64,000 nucleotides of DNA from a virus: IMG/VR virus record IMGVR_UViG_3300003322_000423, positions 1-64,000 of that record. One strand, given 5' to 3'. Each line of letters opens with the position of its first letter. Within the stretch, counting starts at the first letter, position 1. Of the stretch, positions 29,823 to 54,672 are shown piece after piece. The notes beneath the pieces were generated by a model that saw nothing but the letters and a program-made list of their open reading frames with translations, did not search any database and was not told the DNA's origin. The translations under genes and the position numbers were made by a program.

Positions 29823-31022
29823 ATGTCTAGTACAACCTCACGTATGGCTATGTACAAGCCTGCAAGCGGTGAAAACGTAAATGTTGTCACCGACCTTAAC
29901 AACAACCTTGACAGTCTCGATTTAAACATGAACTTTCGTACGTGTACTTCCAGTACACGTCCGTCAGTTAAATGGGATGGTATGACTATCCATGAGACTG
30001 ACACACGAAAGTCATATGTTTGGAATGCTACACCAGCCGTCTCAGGATGGTATGAAATCTTCACCGCAGAAACACCGTTGACTCAGGTGAATTTAGCACA
30101 GTCTGCCACGGGATCATTTACATTGACAAGTAAAATCAACACCGACACAACTTCCCGTTTACAGGTTAGAGGTGATGGACGTCTGGAATGGGGTCCGGGA
30201 GGTGCAGCCGCCACAGATACATTTTTAAGTAGATCTGGCTCCAACGCTTTAAGTACAGCCGGAGATTTCACTGTTACAGGTAATACCACTATCTCCAGTA
30301 CTACAGAGTCTACAGCCCTTAACGTTTCTGGTGGAGGCACTATCTCAAAGAGTCTCACGATTGGAGGTTCTGCATCATTGGGAAGCGGACAGGGTGTACT
30401 TACTCTTCGCAACGCCACAACACCTCCCACAGCCAACCCCACAGATGGTGCTATTAACTGGGTGTCTTCCGACAGACTATTTTTCAGATCCTCTAAAGGT
30501 ATGCAACTTGTAGGTGTTGGGGCTCAATCAGTGGTAGCTGACTCTACCAAAACAAACCCTTCCACCGAAACTCTTATGTACACTTTTACTATTCCTGCCA
30601 ATGACTCGACAACAGGTTCTACATATAGAATTCGCGCATGGGGTACTTTTAACTCTAATGGGGCTGCTACCGCCACCTTTAAAGGTTATATTGGTGGCAC
30701 GGGTGGTACATTGCTTGTAAACAACGGAGGTATAGCTTCTACAGGTACCGTTTCTAACCGTATCTGGAACGCAGAAATTTTTGTAGTCAATACTTCTGGA
30801 GGGGCATCAGGTAAATGTAATATGCACGGTATCTGGTTTACTAACATATCCACTAATGGTTTGGGTACTGCCACACCGGATTCTCGTATGAGCGGTTTTA
30901 CGGAAGCTTCTAACATTAACTGGACAGCAAATCAGGACATTGCGTTAACTATACAAATAACACCCTCAAACGCAAGCAATAACTTAAGAATAATGGGCGC
31001 TATAGCTGAGCGATGTAACTAG
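29823..31022 (+). CDS. Minor tail/fibre protein (399 aa)
   Basis: The N-terminus MSSTTSRMAMYKPASGENVNVVTDLNNNLDSLD is a common opening of baseplate-upper-type proteins in actinophages. The middle is Thr/Ser-rich and repetitive (ADTFLSRSGSN, TVTGNTTISSTTEST). The C-terminal 160 residues look like a beta-sandwich head (TLMYTFTIPANDSTTGSTYRIRAWG). It is the last gene of the rightward virion block, stopped by the bidirectional terminator at 31026. Probably part of the tail tip. Confidence 0.75.
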   Translation: MSSTTSRMAMYKPASGENVNVVTDLNNNLDSLDLNMNFRTCTSSTRPSVKWDGMTIHETDTRKSYVWNATPAVSGWYEIFTAETPLTQVNLAQSATGSFTLTSKINTDTTSRLQVRGDGRLEWGPGGAAATDTFLSRSGSNALSTAGDFTVTGNTTISSTTESTALNVSGGGTISKSLTIGGSASLGSGQGVLTLRNATTPPTANPTDGAINWVSSDRLFFRSSKGMQLVGVGAQSVVADSTKTNPSTETLMYTFTIPANDSTTGSTYRIRAWGTFNSNGAATATFKGYIGGTGGTLLVNNGGIASTGTVSNRIWNAEIFVVNTSGGASGKCNMHGIWFTNISTNGLGTATPDSRMSGFTEASNINWTANQDIALTIQITPSNASNNLRIMGAIAERCN

Positions 31023-31025: not shown

Positions 31026-31053
31026 AACCCCCGTCGATTTGACGGGGGTTCTT
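31026..31053. terminator. Bidirectional terminator between convergent operons
   Basis: A 10-bp stem AACCCCCGTC/GACGGGGGTT (31026-31035 with 31041-31050) with CTTTT on the right and, on the other strand, TTTTTCT. It ends both the virion block and the leftward glycosylation operon. Confidence 0.85.
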
Positions 31054-31329
31054 TTAATCCTCATCTCTTTCTACAACTTCGCCTTGAATAACAGAGGGGG
31101 TTGCTTCATTCATTTTGTCCAGTAGTTCAATGATTCTTTCATCTTGGTTGTTTATTTTGCGCTTCAGTGTTTCATTTTCTTCCGCAAGGGTCTGATTACT
31201 GTCTCTCTGACTTTTCAGTTCAGATTCCAGCATCTCAAGAGCTGCATCCCTGACAATCACATCGTGTGTGCGATTTGCCAAAAGTTCTTTATACCTGTCA
31301 AGTATTTTCTGGTTGGGTACTTCAGTCAT
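31054..31329 (-). CDS. Coiled-coil protein (91 aa)
   Basis: MTEVPNQKIL..VVERDED is predicted to be one long coiled coil (about residues 8-72: AALEMLESELKSQRDSNQTLAEENETLKRKI). It is the last gene of the leftward operon and overlaps the glycosyltransferase gene by 8 bases. It could serve as an oligomeric scaffold, but no partner is indicated. Confidence 0.65.
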   Translation of the reverse strand: MTEVPNQKILDRYKELLANRTHDVIVRDAALEMLESELKSQRDSNQTLAEENETLKRKINNQDERIIELLDKMNEATPSVIQGEVVERDED

Positions 31330-31924
31330 TTAAAGCATCTCCCTTGTCCGGCCGTCCTGAGGTATTACCACCGTCTATATTCCAAATGAACGTCTCCTTG
31401 AGAATATGGTGGAATTTTGCTCCCTCGTCAAGCATCCTGTTGTAGAAACCCCAGTCATCATAGGCTCCGTTAGGGTCTTGTTTAAACTGAAAACCCCCAC
31501 ACGCTTGAGCAAGTTCTGTTCTCACAAGCGACACAACAGGTATATATGACTTCTGGCGCAACAGCTCTGGATCAAATATGTCAGGCCCTCCGGCCTCGAA
31601 AAACCGCTGACATACCTGACCTTGTGCGTTCACTATACGGGGCAACCCGTAAACAACATCTGCCCCGCTGTCTACATGACCCACAATCAGGTCTCGGACA
31701 CCCGTCGAAAGTAACTGGTCATCATCGTCCAGGAACACCGTGAACTCTGTCTGAGATGCCATAAGAGCCCTGTTACGGGTAACCGCAGAACCTTGGCCCC
31801 AACGGTCTACAGCGATGCTGACAGAAGCTACAGGATATTCCTGAGCCATCACACTGGCTACAGCTTTTCTCAGTTTACCCTTACGAGCGGGAATGGTAGG
31901 TATGGCGACTGTTATGTCATACAT
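31322..31924 (-). CDS. Family 2 (GT-A) glycosyltransferase
   Basis: From MYDITVAIPTIP at 31924 the protein is 200 residues. Residues 3-15 are the nucleotide-sugar-binding strand and loop. TEFTVFLDDDDQL holds the metal-binding DxD, and EAGGPDIFDPELL with DDWGFYNRML supplies acidic residues for the acceptor side. It lacks a membrane anchor. It shares layout and phrases (LVRTELAQ, WN-DGGNTSG/WNMHGRNSGG) with the gene at 32151, so the two are paralogues. It would transfer a sugar from a nucleotide donor in the cytoplasm. Confidence 0.85.
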   Translation of the reverse strand: MYDITVAIPTIPARKGKLRKAVASVMAQEYPVASVSIAVDRWGQGSAVTRNRALMASQTEFTVFLDDDDQLLSTGVRDLIVGHVDSGADVVYGLPRIVNAQGQVCQRFFEAGGPDIFDPELLRQKSYIPVVSLVRTELAQACGGFQFKQDPNGAYDDWGFYNRMLDEGAKFHHILKETFIWNIDGGNTSGRPDKGDALND

Positions 31925-32147
31925 CCTGATTTTCTTCCCTGCATTCTGAGATGGGTTGGGGCAGACCCAACATAGGAACATCTACTGTACACAATTTACA
32001 GTAACAGCCTTGAATAGTGAGATCAACAATTTCATCTGATGCAAAACCTGACACATCGTTGACCATCAGGGGTTCGTGTCTTGTAGGGCTGCCGCCATCA
32101 GATTTGATGTCCGGGTAATCCCAGTAAAGATGTAAATACCGCGCCAT
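31917..32147 (-). CDS. Small hypothetical protein in glycosylation operon (76 aa)
   Basis: MARYLHLYWD..CREENQDV is placed between two glycosyltransferase genes, overlapping one by 8 bases and 3 bases from the other. It holds CYCKLC in the middle, a possible metal site, and N-terminal short strands. No family recognised. Its constant placement suggests a helper role, which is an inference. Confidence 0.6.
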   Translation of the reverse strand: MARYLHLYWDYPDIKSDGGSPTRHEPLMVNDVSGFASDEIVDLTIQGCYCKLCTVDVPMLGLPQPISECREENQDV

Positions 32148-32150
32148 TAT

Positions 32151-32753
32151 TCAGTCTCCGTATCCGGGAGGTGGTGCATCTCCCTGACCGGGAACCCCTC
32201 CGCTATTACGGCCGTGCATATTCCACAGCCAAGTCTTATAGGGACAGTGTACTATCTTTGCACCTAAATTCATACACCCCAGAGTAAAGCGCATATCCTC
32301 ATCTGAAACCCCGTAAGTTCCTGGCCTCGGGGTGTTGTAGTCAAGAAACCCCACTTGTTGGGCCAGTTCTGTACGTACAAGTGTGGTGATGGTGGTATGC
32401 CTTGGGTTGTCGTTGTCCCACGGTTTTCCGAAATCTGCTTCGAATGGATTGTAACCTCCCCAGGTGATCGGGTGGGAAAATACGAAATCCGCGTTCTCTT
32501 CTAGAGCTGTTCCATACAAGAGTTCTAAGTGTTGAGGGTACAGACTATCATCACTATCCAGAAAGGCTACATAGGGTGTAATAACCTTCATAAGTCCCTT
32601 GTGGCGTGTCCGTGCAGCACCTAAGCGTTCGGTGTCTATTTCAACGATAACCGCCGAAGGCGGTAGGGTTTGCTCGAAAGCACTTCCTACCGCCTTGGCC
32701 GTCATACCGTTGGTCAGACGCTCACCATGTGTAGGTATGACTACGGAGATCAC
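32151..32753 (-). CDS. Family 2 (GT-A) glycosyltransferase
   Basis: A 200-residue protein starting MISVVIPTHGERL, the donor-binding strand. The DxD motif is in YVAFLDSDDSLYP (about residues 66-78). The C-terminal half has GVSDEDMRFTLGC with acidic catalytic-type residues. It is soluble and short, as minimal GT2 domains are. Its start overlaps the stop of the upstream gene by one base. Together with 31322-31924 and 35233-35874 there are three such enzymes, enough to build an oligosaccharide. Confidence 0.85.
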   Translation of the reverse strand: MISVVIPTHGERLTNGMTAKAVGSAFEQTLPPSAVIVEIDTERLGAARTRHKGLMKVITPYVAFLDSDDSLYPQHLELLYGTALEENADFVFSHPITWGGYNPFEADFGKPWDNDNPRHTTITTLVRTELAQQVGFLDYNTPRPGTYGVSDEDMRFTLGCMNLGAKIVHCPYKTWLWNMHGRNSGGVPGQGDAPPPGYGD

Positions 32754-32980
32754 TATTGAACCTGTATTATCTGCTGAATAGTGCTGTAAGGAATAAAGAC
32801 CTTAGCCGTTTGGCCAGGTTCGTTAGGATAGATAACTGTAACCCCTGCCGGGTGGCTAAAGTCTATATCCGTTATACCTGTAAAATCCCACGTACTAGAC
32901 CCACCCAAGGTGGTGTACATACGTACGATTATGCTATTACCGGTCTCTCTAAAATCTAGAGCTGATATATTAGTACTCAT
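32753..32980 (-). CDS. Small beta-rich protein A (75 aa)
   Basis: MSTNISALDF..IQQIIQVQ is beta-rich and ends AKVFIPYSTIQQIIQV. The neighbour at 32981-33187 ends VRVFFPYEAVESIWQV and also begins MSTN, so the two are diverged tandem copies. Their position between transferase and dehydrogenase genes suggests a role in the pathway, but no catalytic motif is visible. Confidence 0.65.
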   Translation of the reverse strand: MSTNISALDFRETGNSIIVRMYTTLGGSSTWDFTGITDIDFSHPAGVTVIYPNEPGQTAKVFIPYSTIQQIIQVQ

Positions 32981-33187
32981 TTAGAGCACCTGCCAAATAG
33001 ACTCTACAGCCTCGTAAGGGAAGAACACTCTAACGTCATTGTTTACGTCATCTGTGTACTCTACAAACACACCGTCTGTCTGCCAGTCTATAGCATCTAC
33101 TGTTACTGTAGGCGCTCCTGACAACACTCTCTTCAAATAGGTTGTTTTAGTCGGGTCTAAAACAATCTGCTTCACATTTGTCGACAC
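32981..33187 (-). CDS. Small beta-rich protein B (68 aa)
   Basis: MSTNVKQIVL..ESIWQVL shares its beginning and its C-terminal strand-helix (VFFPYEAVESIW) with protein A next door, a tandem duplication. Strands at WQTDGVFVEYTDD fit a small barrel. The gap to the upstream gene is 10 bases. Function unknown. Confidence 0.65.
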   Translation of the reverse strand: MSTNVKQIVLDPTKTTYLKRVLSGAPTVTVDAIDWQTDGVFVEYTDDVNNDVRVFFPYEAVESIWQVL

Positions 33188-33197
33188 GTTGTCTCCT

Positions 33198-34487
33198 TCA
33201 ATTTTTACGTCCCAGACGAATAGTGGTCACTCCATCTTTATCCGGCATGTATCCGAAAGGGTCTATAACGATAGACCCGGGAGGGAATGTCAAGTCTTTA
33301 TGATCTTCATGTTTAGCCCCTATGAAAAACACAGAAGCAGGTATGTTTTCAAAGTCATGTGATGTATCTGAATACACATGGGGGTCGTATACCGAGTGAA
33401 TCACATTCTTATCAACAAGTTGATTCTTGAGCAGTAACGCCGGAGACCCCAAAGTTAAATTGCTTTCCGGCTTGTAGGCCACACCTAAAATAACCACTGG
33501 GAGACTTGTAAGCTCTTGCCAGTCCTGCAACAGCTCTGCCAGCCACAGTGATTGATCCGTACGAGCCTGGGTGACAAACTCAAACGGGTTGGCGTGAAGT
33601 CTCAAGTCCTGTGCAAGCTGCTGCATAGCGATGTTGTCTCTTGGGTGACAACCTCCGCCATCCCCCATACCCCCATGCATGTAAGCACCGGAGGCAATCC
33701 GCTGGTCTGCGGCAGCAAGAGCCTGTGTGACTTCGTCTACATCAGCACCGGTCTTGTGGGCAATCTCCATAAGAGTATTGGCGAATACAATCTTCATGGA
33801 AATGAAGGTGTTGTAGCTGACTTTTGTAAGCTCAGCCGATTCCACGGACATTGGCCGTACGGGTCTGTCGTGAACAGTTCTATACAGATTTGTTACGGTT
33901 TCCAGTGCTTCTTCATCGCTGCCCCCGAGCAAAACAAATTCTGGATTTATGAAATCCCAATAAGTTGTCCCCATAGCGATAAAGAATGGGTTATATACAA
34001 ACTTGACATACTCATTGGTAAGCGGAAGGAGATGTTTATGCGAAGTACCTGGTAGCACAGTAGATATGACTACTAAGGTTATAGGTTTTTTAAGAGACTT
34101 AGCAGCATTACAGACGTCTCGTACAGCATTTACCAGATAGCTGTATTCAAAATCTCTGTACTCCCAGGCAGGGGGTTCTGTCTCTCCACCGAATTTAGGG
34201 CTGTGCGGGGTTTGGGCGGAAACAAAGACAACCGAACCGGACTGAAGCTGTGTGATTGCACCCATAACAGACCCATTCAAATTGATCCTGGGATCATCAT
34301 GATTTCGTTGTAACAGGCTTTGAATGTTGGCCTCCTGAAAAGGATCTACATCCCCGGACAAAATCTGTCCTGGTCTGTCAGATACATCATAGCCCTCAAT
34401 TACAATGTCTTCAGAGCTGTCATGAGCCAACGCTAATGCACAGGTCAAACCTAGTTTGCCAAGACCTATCCAACCTACGGTTGTCAT
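33198..34487 (-). CDS. Nucleotide-sugar 6-dehydrogenase family protein (UDP-Glc/GDP-Man type)
   Basis: The 429-residue protein starts MTTVGWIGLGKLGLTCALAL, a Rossmann NAD site. The middle has YNTFISMKIVFANTLMEIA, with the conserved Lys of the family, and GGMGDGGGCHPRDNIAM, holding the catalytic Cys of the GGxCxPxD motif. The C-terminal domain (VVILGVAYKPESNLTLGSPALLL) binds the nucleotide sugar. Known members oxidise UDP-glucose, UDP-ManNAc or GDP-mannose to uronic acids in two NAD-dependent steps. The exact substrate cannot be read here. It overlaps the methyltransferase gene by 4 bases. Confidence 0.88.
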   Translation of the reverse strand: MTTVGWIGLGKLGLTCALALAHDSSEDIVIEGYDVSDRPGQILSGDVDPFQEANIQSLLQRNHDDPRINLNGSVMGAITQLQSGSVVFVSAQTPHSPKFGGETEPPAWEYRDFEYSYLVNAVRDVCNAAKSLKKPITLVVISTVLPGTSHKHLLPLTNEYVKFVYNPFFIAMGTTYWDFINPEFVLLGGSDEEALETVTNLYRTVHDRPVRPMSVESAELTKVSYNTFISMKIVFANTLMEIAHKTGADVDEVTQALAAADQRIASGAYMHGGMGDGGGCHPRDNIAMQQLAQDLRLHANPFEFVTQARTDQSLWLAELLQDWQELTSLPVVILGVAYKPESNLTLGSPALLLKNQLVDKNVIHSVYDPHVYSDTSHDFENIPASVFFIGAKHEDHKDLTFPPGSIVIDPFGYMPDKDGVTTIRLGRKN

Positions 34488-35236
34488 AGTTCCTTCTTCC
34501 TAAGCACTGCGGCTAGATATCTAGAGTCATCCGTTATGTATTCGAATCTTTCTATAGTGAAAAGATCCCCAAACATTGTATCTAACTTTTCTCGGTTGTA
34601 CCAGTCTGCATAGAGTCCCACGGCATCAAACGCGCGGACAAAAGACATAAAGTTGGGATCAGCTTTTGTATTTGAGGGTGGCTCTGTGCCAACGTACTTA
34701 CGCCATCCTGTATCTGAGTACACCATTAGCCGGACTTCTCCACCCTTCCTAAGAAGTTCGTGTGCCCGTTCCATTATGTCTCGTGCCCATTCTATATGGT
34801 GAAGAACCCCATTACAGTAAAACACATCGAAAGACCTTTTTCGTGCGTTTAAAAACGGAGCCTCTCCAGATACTAAATAAGTTTGAACAGGGTTTTTCCC
34901 ATAGAGACCTAGGACTCTTGTACCTAGTTTAAGATTGTCTGTGCTCAAGTCTGCCAAGGATACTCTATTACCTGCAAGGGCTAATTCTAGAGAATCTACA
35001 GACATGCCGCAACCGAAGTCTAATATATCCTTGTCTGTTAAACTGTCCAGCCCCATGACTTCACGCCACAAGTTATTGTGGTTTCTCCAACCTGTATAGC
35101 GAGTCTCTCTCATGTTATCAACCATGATTTTAAAGTCTCGCTCTTCCATGTTCACCAACATAGAAGATCTGAAGTAGCCTACATCATCTACAGGCGGTGA
35201 TGACCACTCATGAACATGTCTCTCCCAAGAACTCAT
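34484..35236 (-). CDS. SAM-dependent methyltransferase (class I)
   Basis: The 250-residue protein has motif I DILDFGCGMSVDSLELAL (about residues 75-92), the acidic end of strand 2 in VSLADLST, and motif IV DVFYCNGVLHHIEWARD. The pattern matches small-molecule methyltransferases of the Methyltransf_11/25 type, frequent in sugar operons, where they O- or C-methylate sugars. DNA or protein substrates are less likely because there is no target-recognition domain. It overlaps both neighbours by 4 bases. Confidence 0.85.
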   Translation of the reverse strand: MSSWERHVHEWSSPPVDDVGYFRSSMLVNMEERDFKIMVDNMRETRYTGWRNHNNLWREVMGLDSLTDKDILDFGCGMSVDSLELALAGNRVSLADLSTDNLKLGTRVLGLYGKNPVQTYLVSGEAPFLNARKRSFDVFYCNGVLHHIEWARDIMERAHELLRKGGEVRLMVYSDTGWRKYVGTEPPSNTKADPNFMSFVRAFDAVGLYADWYNREKLDTMFGDLFTIERFEYITDDSRYLAAVLRKKEL

Positions 35237-35874
35237 AGATTTAGACCTCGTATCGTTTCCGTGTCTTTGTTTATCAAATTCTGAATCATGGGGCTGTAGT
35301 ACGACTGAGTGGTGTAATTAGATTGCCCCTCGTTCCAGATAGAATCGTTGTTCTGCCCGGATAGATCATATCTTCTATGGTCTATGTACGCTGGGACAGA
35401 CTGTATTGTGCCTGAGGCCCTCCCTATATCTTGCCAATACGTATCGCAGTGATTAGTGTATAAAGAAAAACCACCCACAGCATTTACAGCTTTTCGGCGT
35501 ACAGCCGGGAAACAGCATAAACCGGGAGAGTGTTGAGATTGCATATCTGCAACCATGACCGATGAATCAAGACCCTCTATAAGACGGTCCCAACCCACTG
35601 TGGTCATAATGGCGTCATCATTCCAAAGGAATAACCAGTCTCCGGTGGATCTTTCAGCTAATGCATTGTAATATAGATGTAAATTTCTGTACCCATATCG
35701 TTCTGGAGCGATCCAACAGGTGTTTGGATCTACTAGTCCTTCATATGTGTCTACGTCATCAGGGTCTAAACCTACACACACTTCAAATTGAGAGAGGGCT
35801 GTATTTCTTAAGGACGCTAAAGATTCTTGATATAAAGCGGGTCTACCACGAGTCGGAAGCAGAACTGAAATCAT
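35233..35874 (-). CDS. Family 2-like glycosyltransferase
   Basis: The ATG at 35874 overlaps the upstream TGA (ATGA), so MISVLLPTRGRPALYQES is taken as the start (213 residues). Residues 2-15 form the donor-site strand, and GDWLFLWNDDAIMTTVGW carries the acidic metal site (NDD in place of DxD). A central phrase HYLRR/YTNHCDTYWQDIG fits the acceptor side. It is soluble. It probably transfers one sugar of the product made by this operon. Confidence 0.8.
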   Translation of the reverse strand: MISVLLPTRGRPALYQESLASLRNTALSQFEVCVGLDPDDVDTYEGLVDPNTCWIAPERYGYRNLHLYYNALAERSTGDWLFLWNDDAIMTTVGWDRLIEGLDSSVMVADMQSQHSPGLCCFPAVRRKAVNAVGGFSLYTNHCDTYWQDIGRASGTIQSVPAYIDHRRYDLSGQNNDSIWNEGQSNYTTQSYYSPMIQNLINKDTETIRGLNL

Positions 35875-36887
35875 AATAACCACTCCGGGTGCTCTCTGGT
35901 CCAAAATACAGTCTTTGCTAGAGAGTCTTCAAAAGGCATAGGGTGATGCCAGTAAAGCTCTCTACGTATTTTGCTTCCGTCCAGCGCATATCTGAGGTCG
36001 TGACCCGGTCTGGACGAATGAAAATCCACCCGGTTTATAAGGGGCTGTACCCCAAGTATGTTAGCTATTATTTCCACCATTTCATCGTTGGCCACTTCCC
36101 TTTCACCAACGATGTTGTACCTGTCCGGCCGCTCAAATCCAGCTTTGTACTTAGCAGGTAAATGGTTGTTAGAAAGAGTCAGCCACGCATCTGCTAAATT
36201 ACGAGCATGCAAATAAAACCTAGAACCTGCCACACCTTCGGGACTTGCATGTACTTTAACAGATTTGCCAGCAAGTAGGTTTTTTATAATCAATGGGATG
36301 AACTTTTCTGAAGACTGCATCTCTCCAAAAATGTTCATGGTGTTGGTGATGACAACAGGAATATCATACGTACGCCAGTAACTATATGCTATGGCTTCCT
36401 GAGCTGCCTTGCTGGCACTGTACGGGTTGGATGGTTGTATGGTAGACCATTCGGTGTGTTGTACACCTTCAGAAGCCGGACCGTATACTTCATCTGTAGA
36501 CATTTGTAGAAACAAGGTAGGACCGACCTGACGGGCAAAGTCCAGAAGATTAGTCATAAGGGATACATTATTTTGAATGAATGGTCCGGGTTCGTATATA
36601 GACCGGTCCACGTGAGACTCTGAGGCTACATTCCAGATCTCATCTATACGGCCTATCCGGGAAGTAGTAGGCTGGTCTATGGGGGCTGTCAAATCCAGCA
36701 TGATGACGGATACACGCCTTGCCCAATCTTCGTTACCTTCCAGGGCGGAGGCTATACGGTCGTTTTTACCCTGGTGTGTAAACGTTACAGGGCAAATCAG
36801 TTCCCAGTCGGTGTTTACCAGGACATGTCGCAAGACGTGGGAGCCTACGAATCCCCCGGCCCCTGTCAGGAAAATTCGTTTAGTCAC
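35871..36887 (-). CDS. NAD-dependent nucleotide-sugar dehydratase/epimerase (RmlB-like)
   Basis: A 338-residue extended SDR enzyme. The NAD motif is FLTGAGGFVGSHVLRHVL. The catalytic region has MSTDEVYG and the YSASKAAQE (YxxxK) motif. ESHVDRSIYEPGPFIQNN and RPGHDLRYALDGSKIRREL are strongly reminiscent of dTDP-glucose 4,6-dehydratase, including the STDE segment with its catalytic Asp-Glu. It would make a 4-keto-6-deoxy sugar nucleotide. No RmlA, C or D is seen, so other steps must use host enzymes or genes outside the window. Confidence 0.85.
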   Translation of the reverse strand: MTKRIFLTGAGGFVGSHVLRHVLVNTDWELICPVTFTHQGKNDRIASALEGNEDWARRVSVIMLDLTAPIDQPTTSRIGRIDEIWNVASESHVDRSIYEPGPFIQNNVSLMTNLLDFARQVGPTLFLQMSTDEVYGPASEGVQHTEWSTIQPSNPYSASKAAQEAIAYSYWRTYDIPVVITNTMNIFGEMQSSEKFIPLIIKNLLAGKSVKVHASPEGVAGSRFYLHARNLADAWLTLSNNHLPAKYKAGFERPDRYNIVGEREVANDEMVEIIANILGVQPLINRVDFHSSRPGHDLRYALDGSKIRRELYWHHPMPFEDSLAKTVFWTREHPEWLL

Positions 36888-37908
36888 TGAAAAGTACCTT
36901 TTCCCACTCGCCTATGTGATCCTCTAGAATCTGAGTCCTGGCCCATGCCTTGGCATTCTGACCTATCTCATTTCTCATGGCCTCATCGTTGACAAGGGCA
37001 TTAAGATACTTGGCCCATTCGTGGTCCCGCTTTACAAGGAATCCTGTCTCGCCGTGTTTAATAATACGAGCATAAGGGCCAGAGTCAGCGGCGACTGTAG
37101 GTATTCCGAGTGCAGAGTTTTCGAGGAATTTAAGATGAGACTTAGATTGATTGAAGAGGTGGTGCCGCAGGGGGATGACTCCGATGTCATAATCAATCGC
37201 CTTCCAGTATTCTTCTACACTAGGAATCCAGCCAGCAGCGCTCACCTGGTCCACAGGAAGCCCTAATTGGACCTGGGCCTGAGCTAGGTGACCACCTATG
37301 AGACGGAACGGCATACCGCTACGCTTCAGGTATCGGGAGATATGTGGGCCGTCAGCAGCCCAGTCCATTCCATGTGTACCTGATCCACCCCAACCAATTG
37401 TGAGTTCATCCCTGTGCGGGCGCTCCCAGTCCAGCACCCACCTAGGGATGTAGTTTGGAACGACGTGAACGTTATCGTTCCACTTACCCAAAAGATCTGC
37501 CAGAGGCTCTGTAGAACATGTAACAGCGTCGGCTAGAGCAATGTTGCGCCGTAAATTGGACTGTACATTGTGACGGTGGCCCTCATCATCTATACCATTG
37601 ATGAACCAGCGGAAAGCATCCCCGTTTGTTACATCTATGTTCCATAGATCGTCGTCCAGCTCAAAAACCATACGAGGACGTTCCTTTTTTACTCCGATGT
37701 AAAACCAGAGATCCGATGGACCGTCCTTGCATACTCGCTGCCCTATTAAAGTTTTAGGGAGTTTACTTTCATCAGATGATAACTTGACATCATGTCCGGT
37801 TACATAGCCTAGTTCGGAAGCCAGTGCGTCAAGAGGTTGCATTATACGTAGAGTGCCACACCCTGTCTTATCTGCTAACCAGCCGAATGCGTCGAGTTTT
37901 TCAGTCAT
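36880..37908 (-). CDS. GT-B fold glycosyltransferase (family 4-like)
   Basis: 342 residues. The C-terminal half has the family 4 signature: YDIGVIPLRHHLFNQSKSHLKFLENSALGIPTVAADSGPYARIIKHGETGFLV, with two Glu residues about seven apart at the donor site (split here as KFLE and HGE). The N-terminus CGTLRIMQPLDAL fits an acceptor domain. Unlike the other three, it uses the GT-B fold and probably another donor. It overlaps both neighbours by 8 bases. Confidence 0.85.
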   Translation of the reverse strand: MTEKLDAFGWLADKTGCGTLRIMQPLDALASELGYVTGHDVKLSSDESKLPKTLIGQRVCKDGPSDLWFYIGVKKERPRMVFELDDDLWNIDVTNGDAFRWFINGIDDEGHRHNVQSNLRRNIALADAVTCSTEPLADLLGKWNDNVHVVPNYIPRWVLDWERPHRDELTIGWGGSGTHGMDWAADGPHISRYLKRSGMPFRLIGGHLAQAQVQLGLPVDQVSAAGWIPSVEEYWKAIDYDIGVIPLRHHLFNQSKSHLKFLENSALGIPTVAADSGPYARIIKHGETGFLVKRDHEWAKYLNALVNDEAMRNEIGQNAKAWARTQILEDHIGEWEKVLFSD

Positions 37909-38440
37909 TTAGAAGCCATTTCTGAAAGTGTTCATCTGAATATTCCTGACCAGGTTTCCAGTCTTTTAATCGGTCACGGTGGTATCGAAACTTCTTAGAC
38001 TCGACGTCATATACGTTGGGTAGAGTTTGTAAGAGATCGAAATTATAGGCGGAAATATCCCGGTCATGTCCTGCCCCTGCCCCAGACCTGATATTTTCCG
38101 GTATACCTCCCCATACCCCATAGCGCTCCTTGGAAGCGCATGCAAACTCAAGACATTGGAGACGGATCGGACAGTCAAAACAAACGTCAGCAGCGATAGC
38201 AGACGGCTTGGTATCTCCGGGACAGTGCCATAGATCTTTGGACAGCTCACCTGCTTTTACCTTCTTTGCGCATAGAGCTTCCGACCAATCCACATCGACC
38301 GCAGAGCCTTTTATGAATCTCTCCATAAGTCTGGAGATTTCACGTTCAACTCTGCGGCGGTTTTCTTCTGGGCCTACGTATTCAACTAGGTCATCAAAGA
38401 ATACGTCTTCCCCATACTCCAGCTCATCCCAATCTGACAT
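37901..38440 (-). CDS. whiB-like: WhiB-like iron-sulfur transcription factor
   Basis: The start MSDWDELEYG at 38440 overlaps the primase stop (TGATG) and has GAGG upstream. The 179-residue protein carries the Wbl pattern: Cys in SEALCAKK, then CFDCPIRLQC (C-x2-C-x5-C) and the GVWGG turn with following basic PENIR. Four Cys would hold a 4Fe-4S cluster, and such proteins bind the primary sigma factor. It is longer than typical WhiB (about 90-130), with N-terminal acidic and C-terminal basic extensions. It may switch host or phage promoters during infection. Confidence 0.88.
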   Translation of the reverse strand: MSDWDELEYGEDVFFDDLVEYVGPEENRRRVEREISRLMERFIKGSAVDVDWSEALCAKKVKAGELSKDLWHCPGDTKPSAIAADVCFDCPIRLQCLEFACASKERYGVWGGIPENIRSGAGAGHDRDISAYNFDLLQTLPNVYDVESKKFRYHRDRLKDWKPGQEYSDEHFQKWLLND

Positions 38441-40830
38441 CAGATCCTCAGCATGTTCGTGATCTCGATATCCAGGAATGTCATACGTCCGCGTTCCATG
38501 TCCCAACGCCAGCGGTCCTTGTACTTGCCTTCACGCACATCGGTCCATATGGACTTGGACGACGGAGGACGACCGCTTGAATAATGATCGTCATACCAGT
38601 CGCGGAATGCCTTGTAGAGTACCGTTCCGTCTTTCTTGCCCCCCACAGATTCCTCTGTGCACTGGTTCATGAAGATAAGGAAAGGGTCGTTCTCTTCCAA
38701 CATCATAATGGCATCGAGAGCCAGATCAATAGGCACATCGAGACCGTTTTCAAGATAGTCACGAGTACCCTCTAATATCCAGTTAAGGATACCGGATGAT
38801 TCTCTTTTGGTCAAGTAGTTGAATGGTGTCGAATGGTGGGGTGATGTAAATGAGTCCCATTGTTCTGAAGTAGGCTCCACAGACCATCTAACCGGTCGGA
38901 ACCTTCTAACGATTGAACGATCTGTAGGCAAATCGGGCATGTGGTTGGTTCTAAAATGGAGAGTAAATTTTGGGGTGTATTCCCAGGGGTTGACATTCTT
39001 GGCCTCCGCCTTGATGGCACCACCACCAGTCACATCCTTTAGTAGGGCCGTGTCCATCTTCTGATTGTCATTCAGCTCGTCAACTAGGACGATTCGTTTT
39101 CCTTCGAACGATGCGATGTCTGCCGGAATTCGGTTGCTGTTGCTCTTGCGTACGAACGAATCACGCTGACCGGTGGTAGAGTATTCCCCCAGTACATGAG
39201 CGCAACAATCCAGGAACACACCCTTACCGTTACCACCAGAACCAATATGAAGCGCGAAAATCTGGTCACGGACTTCTCCAATCATTGTAAGACCCATGAG
39301 CCGCTGTAGATACCTACGGTGCTCGGGATTGGGCTGAGTCATTTCCAGAAAACGTAGCCATTCCGGACATTGAGCTGTCGGGTCATAGGTCACGTTGGAA
39401 ATGTTGGTACACATATAGGTGCGGTTGTGTGGGTGTAAAGCGCCTGTACGTATATCTACTACACCGTTTGCTACATTCAGAATATACGGGTCGATATCAA
39501 AATCGTCACCGGTTGTCCAGAGTGCCTCACGGCCCTTTAGAATCAAAGAGGTGGCAGTAATTTTTCCTGCAAATCGCTGCTTGGCTGACCATTCGAGGAA
39601 GACTTGCCGATAAGTTTTCGGAGTTGATTTTGATTTGCTAAGCTCAGCAGGAGGGCAAGTGCCAGGGTTGTAAAACAAAGCTTCCGTGTTAGGGATTTTA
39701 GTGATGACATCTTCTACCAGACTTAGAATTCGGCCCTCTCGGGCTGGTACCCATTTCTTTTTGTCAAAGGTGTAAAACTTTTCCCGGTCGGGATCATAGC
39801 GAATGTCTGATCCTTTCCAGAACACGACCCGGTTGGCGTTACCGATGTCGTCCATCTGGAACGTCTCGATAATGTCTCTGTCATCTGACAGGGCATCGTC
39901 TAGCGGATCGGGGTTTTCATCTGCTGCTCGTCGTCCGCTATCGATAGCCAGTATGGCTCGGTCACGGGGATGATGTCCGGCTGTTGCAGCGTCTTCCAGA
40001 AGTCTCTGGGCTTCGTCATCGTCCAAGACGCCATGGAAGCACAAAGAGAACAGAACACGTGCAGCCGTGTACAGATAAGTGTTCTGGTGCCCGTTGGGGG
40101 CTGTACGGATTTTTCCTGTCCAATAGTCGACAGTCTTTTGAATCTGTTCGCTAAGAGGTTCTGAAATGGCCTCGGGGTTGTAGTCCTGTCGCTCTACTTG
40201 ACGAAGATTGCGGCTTCCCTCTGACCACTTGAACTGGGCCTGGTGATTGAAGATGGCGTCTCTGAGCCACTTAGGTGCAGGCTTGGCGTCTTGAGTATCT
40301 TCAAAATCATAACCAGGGGTTGGAGGGACAAGGTGGTATCCACCTTCACCTTTGATATCGATACCGGGCCATAGGCGCCCTGAAATAGCGTGAACATCAA
40401 AGTTAGGCAGTTCAAATATGAAGTGCTTGCCACCCGCAGGGGTGGTGTTGGTTTCCGTGTCCAGCGGGTCATCAGGGTACTGCTCTGACAATTCTTGAAA
40501 AGACACATCCCCGCCATTACGGGGATCATAATCGAACACAAAAACCCCGCTGGTGCGGCCAGTGGCCACAGCGAGGTGCATATCTGGGGTTTCTCTAACC
40601 CACTGCTCTATGACACCTAAATCATCCGTAGCGGCGTAGAAGCCATGACAACGGGAGTACGGGTCATTCATGCATGCACAATTGGAGCGATGTTCTGGAG
40701 AACTCTCTCCCCGGCAAGCGTCACAGTTGGGGAAGGGTATTTTGTTAGAGGAAATGCCGAAGACCTTACGCCCGCGAGCGATAAGGTCTCTAGCAGCCTC
40801 TACTAATGCTTCCTGGTAGTCACTACTCAC
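38440..40830 (-). CDS. Primase-polymerase/D5-like helicase
   Basis: 796 residues from a GTG at 40830 (AAAGG upstream). The N-terminal AEP-type primase has VFVFDYDPRNGG (metal DxD), PAGGKHFIFEL and GIDIKGEGGYHLVPP. Cys residues near the start (CDACRGE, CACM, C) may bind zinc. The C-terminal half is the D5_N region plus an SF3 helicase: Walker A HIGSGGNGKGVFLD, Walker B KRIVLVDELND, and sensor-type FRTNHMPDLP with an arginine finger in RSIVRRFRPVRW. It initiates replication by unwinding and priming. It heads the leftward operon, so replication and sugar genes share a transcript. Confidence 0.92.
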   Translation of the reverse strand: MSSDYQEALVEAARDLIARGRKVFGISSNKIPFPNCDACRGESSPEHRSNCACMNDPYSRCHGFYAATDDLGVIEQWVRETPDMHLAVATGRTSGVFVFDYDPRNGGDVSFQELSEQYPDDPLDTETNTTPAGGKHFIFELPNFDVHAISGRLWPGIDIKGEGGYHLVPPTPGYDFEDTQDAKPAPKWLRDAIFNHQAQFKWSEGSRNLRQVERQDYNPEAISEPLSEQIQKTVDYWTGKIRTAPNGHQNTYLYTAARVLFSLCFHGVLDDDEAQRLLEDAATAGHHPRDRAILAIDSGRRAADENPDPLDDALSDDRDIIETFQMDDIGNANRVVFWKGSDIRYDPDREKFYTFDKKKWVPAREGRILSLVEDVITKIPNTEALFYNPGTCPPAELSKSKSTPKTYRQVFLEWSAKQRFAGKITATSLILKGREALWTTGDDFDIDPYILNVANGVVDIRTGALHPHNRTYMCTNISNVTYDPTAQCPEWLRFLEMTQPNPEHRRYLQRLMGLTMIGEVRDQIFALHIGSGGNGKGVFLDCCAHVLGEYSTTGQRDSFVRKSNSNRIPADIASFEGKRIVLVDELNDNQKMDTALLKDVTGGGAIKAEAKNVNPWEYTPKFTLHFRTNHMPDLPTDRSIVRRFRPVRWSVEPTSEQWDSFTSPHHSTPFNYLTKRESSGILNWILEGTRDYLENGLDVPIDLALDAIMMLEENDPFLIFMNQCTEESVGGKKDGTVLYKAFRDWYDDHYSSGRPPSSKSIWTDVREGKYKDRWRWDMERGRMTFLDIEITNMLRI

Positions 40831-40876
40831 ACAACCAGCCTTTCAGAGTAGAGGCATTAATCAAGTCAGATGGATC

Positions 40877-40905
40877 ATCTTAGCATGGTTCCCGATAGTT
40901 TGCAA
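40877..40905 (-). promoter_or_regulatory. Promoter of the primase-WhiB-glycosylation operon
   Basis: Read leftward: TTGCAA (40900-40905), a 17-bp spacer, TAAGAT (40877-40882) with TG at the extended -10 position. It is the only good promoter seen before the overlapping genes from 40830 to 31054. Confidence 0.75.
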
Positions 40906-41523
40906 CTAGAAGATTAAACACCAGTAACCGCCGTATCCACCTATACCCACTCTGTTTACACCTGTAGGAATCATGGAAGGGTCTGGCTGTCCGCTGGCTG
41001 ACATGGAACACACCGGATCTCCGACAACTCCCCTAGCAGCCATCCTTTGGGCAGCAAGTACCGCTGTACGTGAGGTATACCACTCAGTGGTTGCACCTGT
41101 CGCACTCGCAGGAGGCGTGGTAGAGGTGGTCGGTACCGAAGTCGTAGGTGTCGATTTCGGGATTGCAGTCGGTACAGGCACCGCAGGCGTCCCAGTCTTC
41201 GGGGTCGACGGCGCCACAGGTTTCGGAGAGACAGGTGAAGTAGTAGGTGTCACAGACACAGGGCTCTTCGTGGGTTTCGGCTTGTGAGGCTTCTTCGTTG
41301 CTGATGGCTTCACCTGCTTGGGTAAAAGATCGTGAGGTATAAACGGATCAGGGGCCTGACCTGAATACGTCGGGCGTTCAGGTTTGTCCGCCTTGACCTG
41401 AACAGTAGCACCTGCTACCACAAACGCCAATAGGGACCCGGCAAATAGAACCAAGGTCCCTACTGCGGCTATGATCTTAGGAAAGACCTGGACCCGCAGT
41501 GGCTTGCGGTAATGTGGCTGCAT
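40906..41523 (-). CDS. Membrane-anchored Thr/Pro-rich surface protein (205 aa)
   Basis: MQPHYRKPLR is followed by a transmembrane helix (about residues 15-40, IIAAVGTLVLFAGSLLAFVVAGATV). A long Pro/Thr/Lys linker follows (KPHKPKPTKSP..PTTSVPTTSTT), then a C-terminal small domain (MAARGVVGDPVCSMSASGQ..GGYGGYWCLIF) with two Cys. The layout suggests display outside the membrane across the thick wall. The C-terminal phrase resembles small secreted actinobacterial domains, but I cannot name it. The start overlaps the upstream gene by 47 bases, so it may lie further in. Confidence 0.65.
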   Translation of the reverse strand: MQPHYRKPLRVQVFPKIIAAVGTLVLFAGSLLAFVVAGATVQVKADKPERPTYSGQAPDPFIPHDLLPKQVKPSATKKPHKPKPTKSPVSVTPTTSPVSPKPVAPSTPKTGTPAVPVPTAIPKSTPTTSVPTTSTTPPASATGATTEWYTSRTAVLAAQRMAARGVVGDPVCSMSASGQPDPSMIPTGVNRVGIGGYGGYWCLIF

Positions 41524-41860
41524 AATTTATCACTACCGTGTCATCATTAGAGGTTATGAGAGATATCAAATCATCGGCCATCACATTGTTTCGGGAGTCT
41601 ATTATCTCTCCGGTGAAAGACCCGGCTTCTTTGTGCATCTGAACAAACAAGGGTTTGGGGGCCGTCTTCAGCCATTGGACTATGTTGGTTCGCAGAGTGT
41701 ATTCAGGGTCGGACTCGGAAAAGAAATCGCTTTCAGGTACTTCCACCCGAGCGAGTTTGAATGTCTGGGTCACTTTGATACCGAAGCCAAGATCGAGAAT
41801 TGCTGTGACCGTGTTGGTGTTTAGAAGGCGGGTTACTTTTTCCACGCGATAATAGTACAT
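41477..41860 (-). CDS. Hypothetical protein on a leaderless transcript (127 aa)
   Basis: MYYYRVEKVT..TAGPGLS is beta-rich with strands such as TVTAILDLGFGIKVTQTFKLARVEV and an acidic middle. The predicted -10 box (41867-41872) ends only 7 bases before this ATG, so the mRNA would begin at or next to the start codon. No ribosome site is present, in line with leaderless translation, which actinobacteria use often. Similar small proteins are frequent in actinophages near DNA metabolism genes. Function unknown. Confidence 0.65.
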   Translation of the reverse strand: MYYYRVEKVTRLLNTNTVTAILDLGFGIKVTQTFKLARVEVPESDFFSESDPEYTLRTNIVQWLKTAPKPLFVQMHKEAGSFTGEIIDSRNNVMADDLISLITSNDDTVVINYAATLPQATAGPGLS

Positions 41861-41866
41861 AGTCGG

Positions 41867-41896
41867 ATTATACCTAAACAACAGGGTCCCAGTCAA
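41867..41896 (-). promoter_or_regulatory. Promoter giving a leaderless mRNA
   Basis: Read leftward: TTGACT (41891-41896), an 18-bp spacer, TATAAT (41867-41872). The -35 box lies inside the terminator hairpin of the upstream gene (41883-41911). Confidence 0.7.
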
Positions 41897-41911
41897 AGCG
41901 ACTGGGACCCT
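41883..41911 (-). terminator. Terminator of the Rpf-M23 gene
   Basis: A 12-bp perfect stem AGGGTCCCAGTC/GACTGGGACCCT with a 5-nt loop, 15 bases beyond the stop at 41927. Confidence 0.85.
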
Positions 41912-41926
41912 TCTATTCTTTATCTA

Positions 41927-43297
41927 TTACAGGGAAACACCCTTGCCTGCCATATAGCTGACAGGGTTGAGGAAGTTACCTACATAGAACTGGGTGGCGT
42001 TGAAACGGATCTCGAAGTGCAAATGAGGACCACTTGCGTTACCTGTTGATCCCACCTTTCCTACTTCCTGTCCGGCTGCAACACTCTGGCCTTCTGAAAC
42101 AGAACGGCTCTGAAGGTGAGCGTACAGCGCATACTTTCCATCCGGAAGCTTTATGGTCACATAGTTTCCATAGGCAGATCCGGCACCACCTGAACCTGTA
42201 TCGACAACAGTTCCGGCCGCAATCGCACGTGCGCTTGTACCCGCATTTGCGATCATGTCCAGTCCACTGTGGCCACCACAGCTACGGCTGATGCAACCAC
42301 TTCCCACGATGATGTTGTCACCTAGATAATATGTTCCCTTTGCAAGGGGTGATACATAACCCTGAGAATTTGAAGGTGGTGTAGGTGTTGTAGGTGTTGT
42401 AGGTGTTGTAGGTGTTGTAGGAGTGCTAGGTGTTGATGACACACCTGAAACCACTAACACCGTACCCACTGTGATCTTGTCCGGGTTAGACCCGATGACT
42501 GACTTATTGGTGTTGTACAGTGCCTGCCATCCACCAGAAACCTTAAGGTTTGTGGCGATGCTTGACAGAGTGTCCCCCTTCTTAACTGTGTACTTGACAA
42601 CAGCACGAGGAAGGGTGAGCTTCTGTCCAGGATAGATCAGGTCAGGATTAGATCCAATTACGCCCTTGTTAGCGTTGTAGAGCGCCTGCCACCCGCCGTT
42701 CACCTTGTTGGCAACAGCAATAGCTGAAAGAGTGTCTCCGCTCTTCACAGTGTACTTTGTACCGCCGCTAGGGGTTGTAGGAGGTGTAGGTGTTACAGGG
42801 GGCTTGGGTGTACTTGGGGGGTTGGGTACGGTTGGAGTTGATGGTGTAGAAGCGTATGGATTAGGTCCACCACGGAACATGGAATCTGAGCTACTACGGA
42901 GAGGGTACCCCACCATAGAGTTACATGCCCACGCGTCTGGTCCCTGCATAGCTAGCAAAGCTTCCCCGGCTAAAATCTGCTGCTGCTTTGTAGCTGAACC
43001 TAGGTTATCCCAGCTAGGATAAGCTGAGGTGTCAAAACCTTTGTCTCTTAAATACTGAAGTGCTTCATTCCATGAAGCACGCTGAAACTGGAGACCACCC
43101 TTTGAGCGTCCGTTGTCTCCATAGTTGATGCTCCAGTTGCCGTTACTTTCACACTGGGCAATTCGGTCCCATTGGTTTACGGTTGCTGCGTTTGCCATTC
43201 CCGAACTGAGGACGGGAACAACCATAGCAGCACTCAATACGACCATAGTCGCAATTGCAGTGTTTACGCCCTTCTTGTTCTTGTTTTCCAATGACAT
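41927..43297 (-). CDS. Secreted Rpf-like/LysM/LysM/M23 peptidoglycan hydrolase (456 aa)
   Basis: A signal peptide (residues 1-38, IATMVVLSAAMVVPVLSSG then NAA) precedes an Rpf/transglycosylase-like domain (about 39-115: WDRIAQCESNGNWSINYGDNGRSKGGLQF, with the catalytic Glu in CESNGNW). Two LysM domains follow (about 178-225 and 232-278, YTVKSGDTLSAIA and YTVKKGDTLSSIA), then a Pro/Thr linker and an M23 peptidase domain (about 325-450) with GGHSGLDM, YALYAHLQSRS and GPHLHFEIRF as zinc and catalytic motifs. It would cut both glycan and peptide bonds outside the membrane. Its own extended -10 promoter and distance from the lysis genes suggest a separate role. Confidence 0.9.
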   Translation of the reverse strand: MSLENKNKKGVNTAIATMVVLSAAMVVPVLSSGMANAATVNQWDRIAQCESNGNWSINYGDNGRSKGGLQFQRASWNEALQYLRDKGFDTSAYPSWDNLGSATKQQQILAGEALLAMQGPDAWACNSMVGYPLRSSSDSMFRGGPNPYASTPSTPTVPNPPSTPKPPVTPTPPTTPSGGTKYTVKSGDTLSAIAVANKVNGGWQALYNANKGVIGSNPDLIYPGQKLTLPRAVVKYTVKKGDTLSSIATNLKVSGGWQALYNTNKSVIGSNPDKITVGTVLVVSGVSSTPSTPTTPTTPTTPTTPTPPSNSQGYVSPLAKGTYYLGDNIIVGSGCISRSCGGHSGLDMIANAGTSARAIAAGTVVDTGSGGAGSAYGNYVTIKLPDGKYALYAHLQSRSVSEGQSVAAGQEVGKVGSTGNASGPHLHFEIRFNATQFYVGNFLNPVSYMAGKGVSL

Positions 43298-44260: not shown

Positions 44261-44707
44261 ATGGGTGAGCCTTACTTTATACCTGGCGCAAAAAGAATAG
44301 CGGCTGCCCTGAAACTAGCAGGGTTCAAGGACTCTGAACTAGTCACCATGGTGGCCATCCACGGACAGGAAACCTCCGGAAACGTCTGGGTCAAGGGTGG
44401 TCCTAACAAGGATGGTACTTACGACTTTGGAGCCTTCCAGATCAACTCTAACAGCCCCGACGGTCCGCAGAACTGGAAAGACTACTGCCAGAATGCCAAG
44501 TACGCTAGGGATATCTATCTGCGCCAGGGTTACAAAGCCTGGTATGCATATGCTAAAGGTCGCTTGACCAACAAGCCAGGTTTTGTAAAGCACAGTAATT
44601 GGAATTGGCTGGACTGGGCACAAGATGGTGTGAACCAGATGAATGCTGACCTCAAGCGAGGCTACAGCTTAGAGCGTATAGCGTCATTCTATGGTCTGGA
44701 AGGTTAA
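44261..44707 (+). CDS. Endolysin A: lysozyme/transglycosylase-like (148 aa)
   Basis: The protein is a compact goose-lysozyme/SLT-type domain: LVTMVAIHGQETSGNVWVKGG with the catalytic Glu (about residue 36), followed by YDFGAFQINSNSP, the substrate-cleft signature, and helices up to IASFYGLEG. It would cleave the glycan strand of peptidoglycan. No signal peptide is present, so it needs the holin encoded 1.8 kb downstream. It abuts the next endolysin gene, indicating a split lytic activity carried by two proteins. Confidence 0.85.
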   Translation: MGEPYFIPGAKRIAAALKLAGFKDSELVTMVAIHGQETSGNVWVKGGPNKDGTYDFGAFQINSNSPDGPQNWKDYCQNAKYARDIYLRQGYKAWYAYAKGRLTNKPGFVKHSNWNWLDWAQDGVNQMNADLKRGYSLERIASFYGLEG

Positions 44708-46018
44708 ATGAGAACCACAGCGGCTAAAGTCATAAACCAGTGCGCTTCACAAGAGGGTTATCGTGAAGGTGCCGATAACTACAATAAGTACGCCCCTATT
44801 GCTGGCCACGCCAATCACGAGGCTTGGTGTGCGACCTTCCTTGTTGCAGAATTCAAGGTAGCAGGTCAGGAATTACCACCCGGTGCGGACACAGCGGGAT
44901 GCTGGGAGAATGTACAGGCTTTCAAAAGAGCTGGGCGATTCTCCGTATACCCTGCCGTAGGTGCTATTTTCTTCATCGGGGATTCTGGTGATGAACACAC
45001 CGGATTAGTGTACAAATACGATGGCTCGAATATCTATACAATAGAGGGTAATACAAATACCGATGGTTCCGCCAACGGTAACGGTGTCTATAAACGGGTA
45101 CGTGAACGTAGCTCTATCTACGGGTACGGATATCCTAATTATTCAGATGCCATAGTGTCAGCAGACCCCAAGTGGGGTGGTACAGCCACTCCTCCCTCAA
45201 CCACACCCCCGTCTGGAGGTTCTACAGTGCCTAGCATCAGGTTAACAGATGTACAGCCGGGAGACAACAACAGTTCCGTTCTTCTGGTACAGAAAGCTCT
45301 CAAAAAGGTGTACCCCGACTTTGACTATTCGTCAGGGCCCGGAGTGTTCGGCCCCCGGACAACAGCCGCTTATGCCAGGTACCAGCGCTCATTGGGGTTC
45401 TCAGGTGCGGACGCTTCCGGTACGCCCGGGAACACTTCTCTTGTTGCGTTGGGTAAGCAAACAGGGTTGTTCACCGTGTCGGGTGCCACTTCAACACCTG
45501 CGCCCTCTATACCTAGCACACCGTCCCAGCCTTCAGGGCCTACAACAGGGTCTAACTACGAGACGCGTCCTGAACCCTCTATGGACATGACCCGGACCAC
45601 TTACGGTGGACGTACTGTCAACCAGAGAACAAAGGTTTTGTTGCAGCGTGCTGCCGAAATCTACGGATCTCCGTTCTATCTGGTTCAGGGTTCGTACAAC
45701 CGAGGCGGCGTGTCTGCCTCTGCCGGTACCCACGACGGTGGCGGAGTTGTTGACGTCGATGTGTCAAATATGAATACAAGTCAGCGTCTAAACGCTGTAC
45801 AGGCTCTACGTAAGGCAGGTTTCGCAGCCTGGCTTCGCACTCCTGCCGAAGGGTTCTCCTACCACATCCACGCATGTGCGATAGGGGATAGAGAAATGGC
45901 TTATGTTGCCAAGGATCAGGTACAAAGCTATTTCAATGGCCGTAATGGTTTGGTGTCAAATGCACGTGTAACTGACGCCCTTCACTGGCCGAATTGGGCA
46001 GACAAGTACAATTACTGA
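44708..46018 (+). CDS. Endolysin B: CHAP-PG-binding-M15-like (436 aa)
   Basis: Residues 1-155 are a CHAP-type amidase/peptidase: Cys in NHEAWCATFLVAEF, His in GDEHTGLVYKY, acidic residue in YTIEGNTN. Residues about 175-255 are a peptidoglycan-binding domain (VLLVQKALKKVYP..FGPRTTAAYARYQ) that closely matches the one in the tape measure protein. After a Pro/Thr linker, residues about 290-436 look like an M15-type D,D-carboxypeptidase or endopeptidase (QGSYNRGGVSASAGTHDGGG, VVDVDVS, SYHIHACAIG). Three modules would cut the peptide moiety at two places. Confidence 0.88.
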   Translation: MRTTAAKVINQCASQEGYREGADNYNKYAPIAGHANHEAWCATFLVAEFKVAGQELPPGADTAGCWENVQAFKRAGRFSVYPAVGAIFFIGDSGDEHTGLVYKYDGSNIYTIEGNTNTDGSANGNGVYKRVRERSSIYGYGYPNYSDAIVSADPKWGGTATPPSTTPPSGGSTVPSIRLTDVQPGDNNSSVLLVQKALKKVYPDFDYSSGPGVFGPRTTAAYARYQRSLGFSGADASGTPGNTSLVALGKQTGLFTVSGATSTPAPSIPSTPSQPSGPTTGSNYETRPEPSMDMTRTTYGGRTVNQRTKVLLQRAAEIYGSPFYLVQGSYNRGGVSASAGTHDGGGVVDVDVSNMNTSQRLNAVQALRKAGFAAWLRTPAEGFSYHIHACAIGDREMAYVAKDQVQSYFNGRNGLVSNARVTDALHWPNWADKYNY

Positions 46019-54452: not shown

Positions 54453-54526
54453 TGGTGGCGCCGCCCCGAGTCGCACGGGGGTCAAAGGGTTATGAGCCCT
54501 TTATGGAACTCCTCCACTACAGCGCA
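54453..54526 (-). tRNA. tRNA-fMet (CAT), initiator type
   Basis: The anticodon arm is AAGGG-CTCATAA-CCCTT, with three consecutive G:C pairs next to the loop, the hallmark of initiator tRNA. Position 1:72 is a T-C mismatch, also an initiator trait. The CCA end is encoded. The T arm CCCCG-TGCGACT-CGGGG has an unusual loop. Confidence 0.8.
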
Positions 54527-54527
54527 G

Positions 54528-54601: not shown

Positions 54602-54672
54602 ATAGAAAGGAACAATGTCAGGTACAGCCGTGTCTCCTGATGTGGCCTGGCCCAGCTACTCATTGTTCCTTG

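Follow-up and report, generated by a model that had tools for sequence, protein, structure and literature searches.

A glycosyltransferase and sugar-enzyme cassette beside the tail-fibre gene of an actinophage, probably for glycosylation of its virion

We describe a block of genes in a 64,000-nucleotide stretch of viral DNA (the window; positions 1 to 64,000 of the 98,589-base virus record IMGVR_UViG_3300003322_000423) that sets glycosyltransferases (GTs) and sugar-modifying enzymes next to a tail-fibre gene. The block, in our view, is probably a modular cytosolic cassette by which an actinophage would glycosylate its virion, docked beside the tail-fibre gene and probably meant for tail proteins. 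It consists of 13 open reading frames (ORFs) on the minus strand, from 40830 down to 31054. A sequence-only reading of this DNA had taken them for a tightly packed operon linking replication genes to a sugar-building pathway; all of the ORFs are present, and the functional calls made there hold in family matches, one GT-A by a phage family only. The genes and the features at either end are as follows (NDP, nucleoside diphosphate; SAM, S-adenosylmethionine).

40877-40905, minus strand: proposed promoter, TTGCAA-17-TAAGAT, with 8 of 12 consensus bases, under the scanner threshold
38440-40830, minus strand: Prim-Pol / D5-type primase-helicase (PF09250, PF08706, PF19263, phrog_1156)
37901-38440, minus strand: WhiB-like regulator (PF02467, E 6.7e-12)
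36880-37908, minus strand: GT-B glycosyltransferase, conserved first gene in this cassette type (PF13692, PF00534, phrog_7162)
35871-36887, minus strand: RmlB-like NDP-hexose 4,6-dehydratase (TIGR01181; dTDP-glucose 4,6-dehydratases in the PDB, E 3e-44)
35233-35874, minus strand: GT-A glycosyltransferase 1 (phrog_14945, E 6e-13; assigned by phage family only)
34484-35236, minus strand: SAM-dependent methyltransferase (PF08242, PF13649)
33198-34487, minus strand: UDP-glucose/GDP-mannose dehydrogenase family protein (PF00984, 67.8 bits; PF03721)
32981-33187, minus strand: small protein, paralogue 1 (32% identical to its neighbour, paralogue 2)
32753-32980, minus strand: small protein, paralogue 2 (32% identical to paralogue 1)
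32151-32753, minus strand: GT-A glycosyltransferase 2, kept in this cassette type close to its tail-side end (PF00535, phrog_14775)
31917-32147, minus strand: 76-residue protein with a CxCxxC motif (no family match)
31322-31924, minus strand: GT-A glycosyltransferase 3 (PF00535, phrog_14775; 33% identical to GT-A 2)
31054-31329, minus strand: small coiled-coil protein (most relatives have a counterpart in the same place, separating the cassette from the tail fibre)
31026-31050, both strands: bidirectional intrinsic terminator (11-bp stem, T-run on each strand)
29823-31022, plus strand: tail-fibre-like protein, encoded at the end of the tail module and convergent with the cassette (fibre role suggested by position and composition)

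From the primase downward, the listed starts give junction distances of -67, -8, -8, -34, -4, -4, +10, 0, -1, +3, -8 and -8 bases. Corrected starts for WhiB (ATG 38440) and GT-A 1 (ATG 35874, the probable start) turn -67 into -1 and -34 into -4; 11 of the 12 junctions are then overlaps, contacts or gaps of no more than 3 bases, and the twelfth is a gap of 10. For WhiB, ATG 38440 is more likely than TTG 38506, judging from an alignment: the start of its 66% identical homologue in the relative L106 aligns there, with residue 22 of the longer ORF. There is no strong terminator between the genes of the block, and the one reported at 31026 is borne out, serving both the cassette and the convergent tail-fibre gene. 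The promoter proposed at 40877-40905 is unsupported: it is absent from the list of sites above threshold, which is itself at chance level (16 found versus 15.7 expected). Three further minus-strand genes (40906-43297), the last of them endolysin-like, stand 75 bp upstream of the block; the transcript may therefore begin further up, and the 5' end of the transcription unit may lie upstream of the primase gene.

Four products of the block are GTs, and two of these were modelled with AlphaFold2 at a predicted local distance difference test (pLDDT) above 90. The GT-B model (pLDDT 94.4) has a GT4-like fold and is nearest BshA, PimA, TarM and SdgB, the last of which has a structure with a bound O-glycosylated SD peptide; 136 stretches related to this gene were found across viral contigs. 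The model of GT-A 2 (pLDDT 90.9) is a GT-A domain of compact shape, with RmlT, TarS and TarP as nearest folds, and its match to the TarP/TarS-like fold (Foldseek E ~1e-10, template-modelling score (TM) ~0.7) covers a generic GT-A core. In sequence, GT-A 2 is 54% identical to gp107 of Streptomyces phage KimJongPhill, and GT-A 1 is 38-48% identical to its counterparts in the relatives L052, L067 and L095. The dehydratase has the motifs STDEVYG (TDE), YSASK (YxxxK) and GAGGFVG (the GxxGxxG NAD site), and its TDE and YxxxK are preserved in 5 of 5 aligned relatives. Its score of 216 bits does not reach the NCBIfam TIGR01181 equivalog cut-off of 365, and we therefore call it RmlB-like only. The dehydrogenase, 53% identical in L052, keeps the catalytic-cysteine motif GGGCHPRDN and the central domain and matches UDP-glucose dehydrogenase in the PDB (E 1.6e-28), with scores under the family cut-offs of TIGR03026 (173 versus 189.8 bits) and PF03720 (25.9 versus 30 bits). 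The methyltransferase is 46% identical in the cassettes of L067 and L095 and presumably acts in sugar O-methylation. Family searches with the two small paralogues and the Cys protein gave no match at a useful level.

The sequence-only reading credited the block with enough enzymes to make a modified sugar, and this was overstated. Within the block there is no sugar nucleotidyltransferase, RmlC, RmlD, decarboxylase or aminotransferase; since the first four of these are missing, the sugar pathway is incomplete and must draw on NDP-sugars supplied by the host. The same reading was right that neither an oligosaccharyl anchor nor a polymerase is encoded: we found no flippase or polymerase in the block, and its proteins have no convincing membrane segment (highest 19-residue hydropathy 1.46). 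Gtr-type O-antigen conversion, which is marked by membrane-bound GtrA/GtrB and a glucosyltransferase, does not fit cassette proteins of this kind.

The position of the cassette is kept across its relatives. Homologues of GT-B and GT-A 2 were gathered from viral contigs and genomes and annotated by tblastn, which gave 137 contig groups. Tail or head genes lie within 4 kb in 54 of them, the cassette converges on the tail gene in 36, and a replication gene is nearby in 5; these counts are lower bounds, limited by the sensitivity of the reference proteins. As an independent test, which avoids selection by the glycosyltransferases, we searched with nothing but the tail-fibre family (29823-31022) and obtained 50 public viral loci. 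Directly downstream of the fibre, 49 of these carry a convergent GT cassette, and the 50th has GTs on the other strand. Matches to cassette genes number 180 downstream of the fibre versus 0 upstream, on the tail side, in ~440 kb each, and a small coiled-coil gene stands between cassette and fibre at 45 of the 50 loci. A hidden Markov model of the coiled-coil protein finds matches in 27 contig groups, the copy in our block matching weakly (E 0.075). The fibres have diverged to a median pairwise identity of 41% and the cassette contents come in ~15 combinations; the location has therefore outlasted the content. The genes exchanged are those of the interior, and the outer ones (GT-B; either a GT-A or some other GT; coiled coil) show greater stability. 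That glycosylation genes stay put while their identity changes is not accounted for by inheritance alone. A comparison of gene neighbours had been suggested as a check on the thirteen-gene operon, and its outcome is divided: the cassette is kept beside the tail fibre, but the link to primase and WhiB is not.

The exchange can be followed in the closest relative, L031/L106 (IMGVR 3300003322_000196), which shares the order primase, WhiB, GT-B, RmlB-like dehydratase, GT-A 2 and tail fibre. Its interior differs: in place of GT-A 1, the methyltransferase, the dehydrogenase and GT-A 3 of our block, it has an epimerase-like protein, a further GT-like protein and a GT that contains a DXD sugar-binding region. 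In L052, L067 and L095, GT-A 1 with dehydrogenase, methyltransferase and/or dehydratase recurs together with GT-A 2; L095 also has a portal protein gene nearby. Other cassettes include a 2-oxoglutarate (2OG)-Fe(II) oxygenase (PF13640, E 6e-14; L005 12227-12880, and at the same position in L004, L044, L061, L077, L081 and L084), which was not found in our genome and could hydroxylate a residue or a sugar ahead of glycosylation. 

We propose virion decoration because in dozens of relatives the cassette adjoins the tail-fibre gene while the genes inside it are swapped. This pattern suggests that the virus decorates its own particle, probably the tail, with a changeable sugar coat. The choice of the virion as target draws on the analogy with mycobacteriophages Che8, Corndog and Myrna, whose capsid and tail proteins are glycosylated, on experimental evidence, by phage-encoded glycosyltransferases according to the passage of PMC12363180 that cites Freeman 2023. 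Our block resembles these in having actinophage-encoded GTs and, as we infer, a virion protein target. It differs in bringing several genes, sugar-modifying enzymes among them, together in one cassette at the tail fibre; a Che8 GT turns up solely as a distant fold match (TM 0.57), and the matches listed show no sequence relation to those GTs. What is known is phage-encoded virion glycosylation in actinophages, and the present case would be a variant of it in the form of a multi-gene, tail-docked cassette. Chloroviruses likewise glycosylate their capsids in the cytoplasm, PBCV-1 having virus-coded GTs and nucleotide-sugar enzymes that act there (PMC7019647), but it is an unrelated eukaryotic virus and its capsid glycan is known to be N-linked.

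In the mechanism that we envisage, the soluble enzymes would work in the host cytoplasm, late in infection. The dehydratase would turn a host NDP-sugar into a 4-keto-6-deoxy NDP-sugar, the dehydrogenase would turn a host NDP-sugar into an NDP-uronate, and the GT-B with up to three GT-As would assemble a short chain on a virion protein. The carrier of the chain would most likely be a Ser/Thr-rich tail protein, and O-linkage is a guess. Modification by the methyltransferase would leave a chain with a deoxy and/or uronic sugar, possibly methylated, and replacement of interior genes would change the sugar type. Primase and WhiB would be neighbours by chance in this lineage. The tail-fibre protein itself is 27% Ser+Thr versus a genome mean of 15%, a weak hint that it carries the glycan, since fibres are often Ser/Thr-rich anyway. 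Other candidate carriers lie outside the main tail module: a beta-helix tail spike (46917-49022, plus strand; PF13229, phrog_2234) and, after it, further Ser/Thr-rich fibre-like proteins up to 53554. 

A broader idea, which we put forward tentatively, is that the locus could be a glycotype-exchange site of the tail. Sugar pathways would recombine into a fixed dock made of tail fibre, coiled-coil partner and GT-B, and related Streptomyces phages would vary which sugar their receptor-binding apparatus bears, much as bacteria vary serotypes; the transferases might be brought to the fibre by the coiled-coil protein. Actinophage glycosyltransferases are common and mostly have no assigned target. 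A cassette kept at the tail-fibre gene despite enzyme exchange across diverged phages makes the glycan target directly testable, and the exchange itself suggests that phages vary a surface glycan. The block also supplies soluble sugar-modifying enzymes and candidates for protein glycosylation.

Several observations weigh against virion glycosylation. The 38 records matched by the cassette's second half include no mycobacteriophage, and some contigs place homologues near a DNA polymerase. Common descent explains part of the linkage, the 50 loci being one broad phage group. Where the cassette lies beside the tail, its transcription opposes that of the tail genes, like that of morons, and the best fold matches of GT-A 2 are wall-teichoic-acid transferases. 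These last two points also speak for the main rival, in which a polymer of the host wall (wall teichoic or teichulosonic acid) receives the sugars in the cytoplasm. This would keep other phages from adsorbing or progeny from re-adsorbing, in the manner of TarP, which is prophage-encoded in Staphylococcus. TarM is moreover among the GT-B matches, transferases of the RmlT, TarS, TarP and TarM kind are soluble cytosolic enzymes, and relatives of our genes are present in Streptomyces genome assemblies; Streptomyces strains also carry tail-linked relatives (loci L020 and L022-L024). We nevertheless regard host teichoic-acid decoration, though a serious rival, as less likely: GT-A and GT-B folds are generic, with TM ~0.7 at ~20% identity; no tyrosine or serine integrase was found in the genome record, which may be incomplete; and in 9 other contig groups and the named Zukovirus phages the homologues lie near the terminase gene and run in its direction.

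The other explanations place the sugars elsewhere or tie them to replication. Sugars on the bases of the phage DNA, known from T-even phages and SP-15, would agree with the adjacent primase, with a dCMP deaminase match and with the related dehydrogenase of Bacillus phage SP-15, whose glycosylated-base cluster also combines a UDP-glucose dehydrogenase with GTs and which is thought to use UDP-glucuronic acid (UDP-GlcA) in base modification (PMC5977210). SP-15, in contrast to our virus, has a hydroxymethyldeoxyuridine synthase. PF00303 (thymidylate synthase/hydroxymethylase) is absent from the whole record, in a search whose control gave matches in 9 of 14 genomes, and the sole synthase found is ThyX; therefore no hydroxymethyl base handle is seen. 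PurZ-type 2-aminoadenine synthesis was not found either, and the adjacency of the primase is not conserved. We rejected DNA hypermodification for want of a PF00303 enzyme and hold it to be very improbable. Of the targets offered in the sequence-only reading, then, virion proteins are supported as a possible one, masking of the host surface stands as a rival, and modified DNA bases are unlikely. That reading also tied glycan synthesis to the timing of replication, and a functional unit of this kind could be read from the overlaps between the genes, from the lack of a strong terminator among them and from the same order in L106. Of the 137 contig groups, however, L031/L106 alone has primase and WhiB ahead of the cassette; they are not beside it in any other tail-linked relative examined, and many of these have an endolysin there. 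We rejected a replication-coupled unit on this account and give it still less credence than DNA modification: the primase-helicase, which adjoins the cassette only here and in L106, is an upstream neighbour outside the conserved cassette, and the meaning of the block shifts from replication to the virion. Least probable of all is an acceptor other than a polymer, namely a small molecule or a product secreted by the host. RmlB-like dehydratases and sugar methyltransferases do serve antibiotic glycosylation in Streptomyces, but no aglycone pathway is nearby, several GTs act in series, and the genes are linked to the tail.

Related glycan genes occur in other settings. Zukovirus (Streptomyces phages KimJongPhill and Zuko; gp4-6, gp107-110) has a homologous dehydratase (47%), GT-B (39-42%) and GT-A (49-54%) plus methyltransferases, split into one block directly before the terminase and another near the genome end; unlike in our block, no dehydrogenase of the UDP-Glc/GDP-Man type was seen. 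The homologues directly before the terminase are on the same strand in KimJongPhill (gp4-6), Zuko and the 9 contig groups, and on the opposite strand in 2 groups; Microbacterium phage Magritte has similar genes directly before the terminase, on the same strand. Arthrobacter phages Mimi, Racecar, Atuin and Talia1610 have a 56% identical dehydratase and homologues of GT-B and GT-A, scattered (in Mimi, for example) among tRNA and repair genes with no tail neighbour within the 30 kb read. Genes named UDP-glucose dehydrogenase in these four phages (e.g. L018 11801-12865), and gp156 of Streptomyces phage JustBecause, match RmlB-like dehydratases or epimerase-like proteins, and by these sequence matches the public names look wrong. 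Searching viral contigs with our dehydrogenase alone gave no relative, the relatives being reached via the GT-A search. Among named phages, the tail fibre (query from L005) had no match, and the virus had no relative at the nucleotide level.

The virus is an actinophage whose host is probably Streptomyces or a relative; its terminase shares ~50% identity with terminases of Streptomyces phages, Yara for example, and ~46% with that of Zukovirus. The lifestyle is probably virulent. The G+C content is 50%, and the record encodes ThyX, sigma-like and SNF2-like proteins. Two modules on opposite strands resemble cell-wall lysis genes, one with LysM and peptidase similarity (41927-43297, minus strand) and one judged from its sequence alone (44261-46018, plus strand). 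The window holds 25 tRNA genes (54453-61252, minus strand), with odd anticodons among them, e.g. Cys(aca); within this cluster lies a possible secreted protein (55337-56452, minus strand) with weak similarity, below cut-off, to glycosyl hydrolase family 43. Matches to the dATP/dGTP diphosphohydrolase N-terminal domain, MazG, dCMP deaminase and Lsr2 fall mostly at 64-98 kb of the record. At 79529-80575 of the record (L015 15529-16575, minus strand), a protein similar to sigma-70 regions 2 and 4 is a possible phage sigma factor, which might explain the missing consensus promoters.

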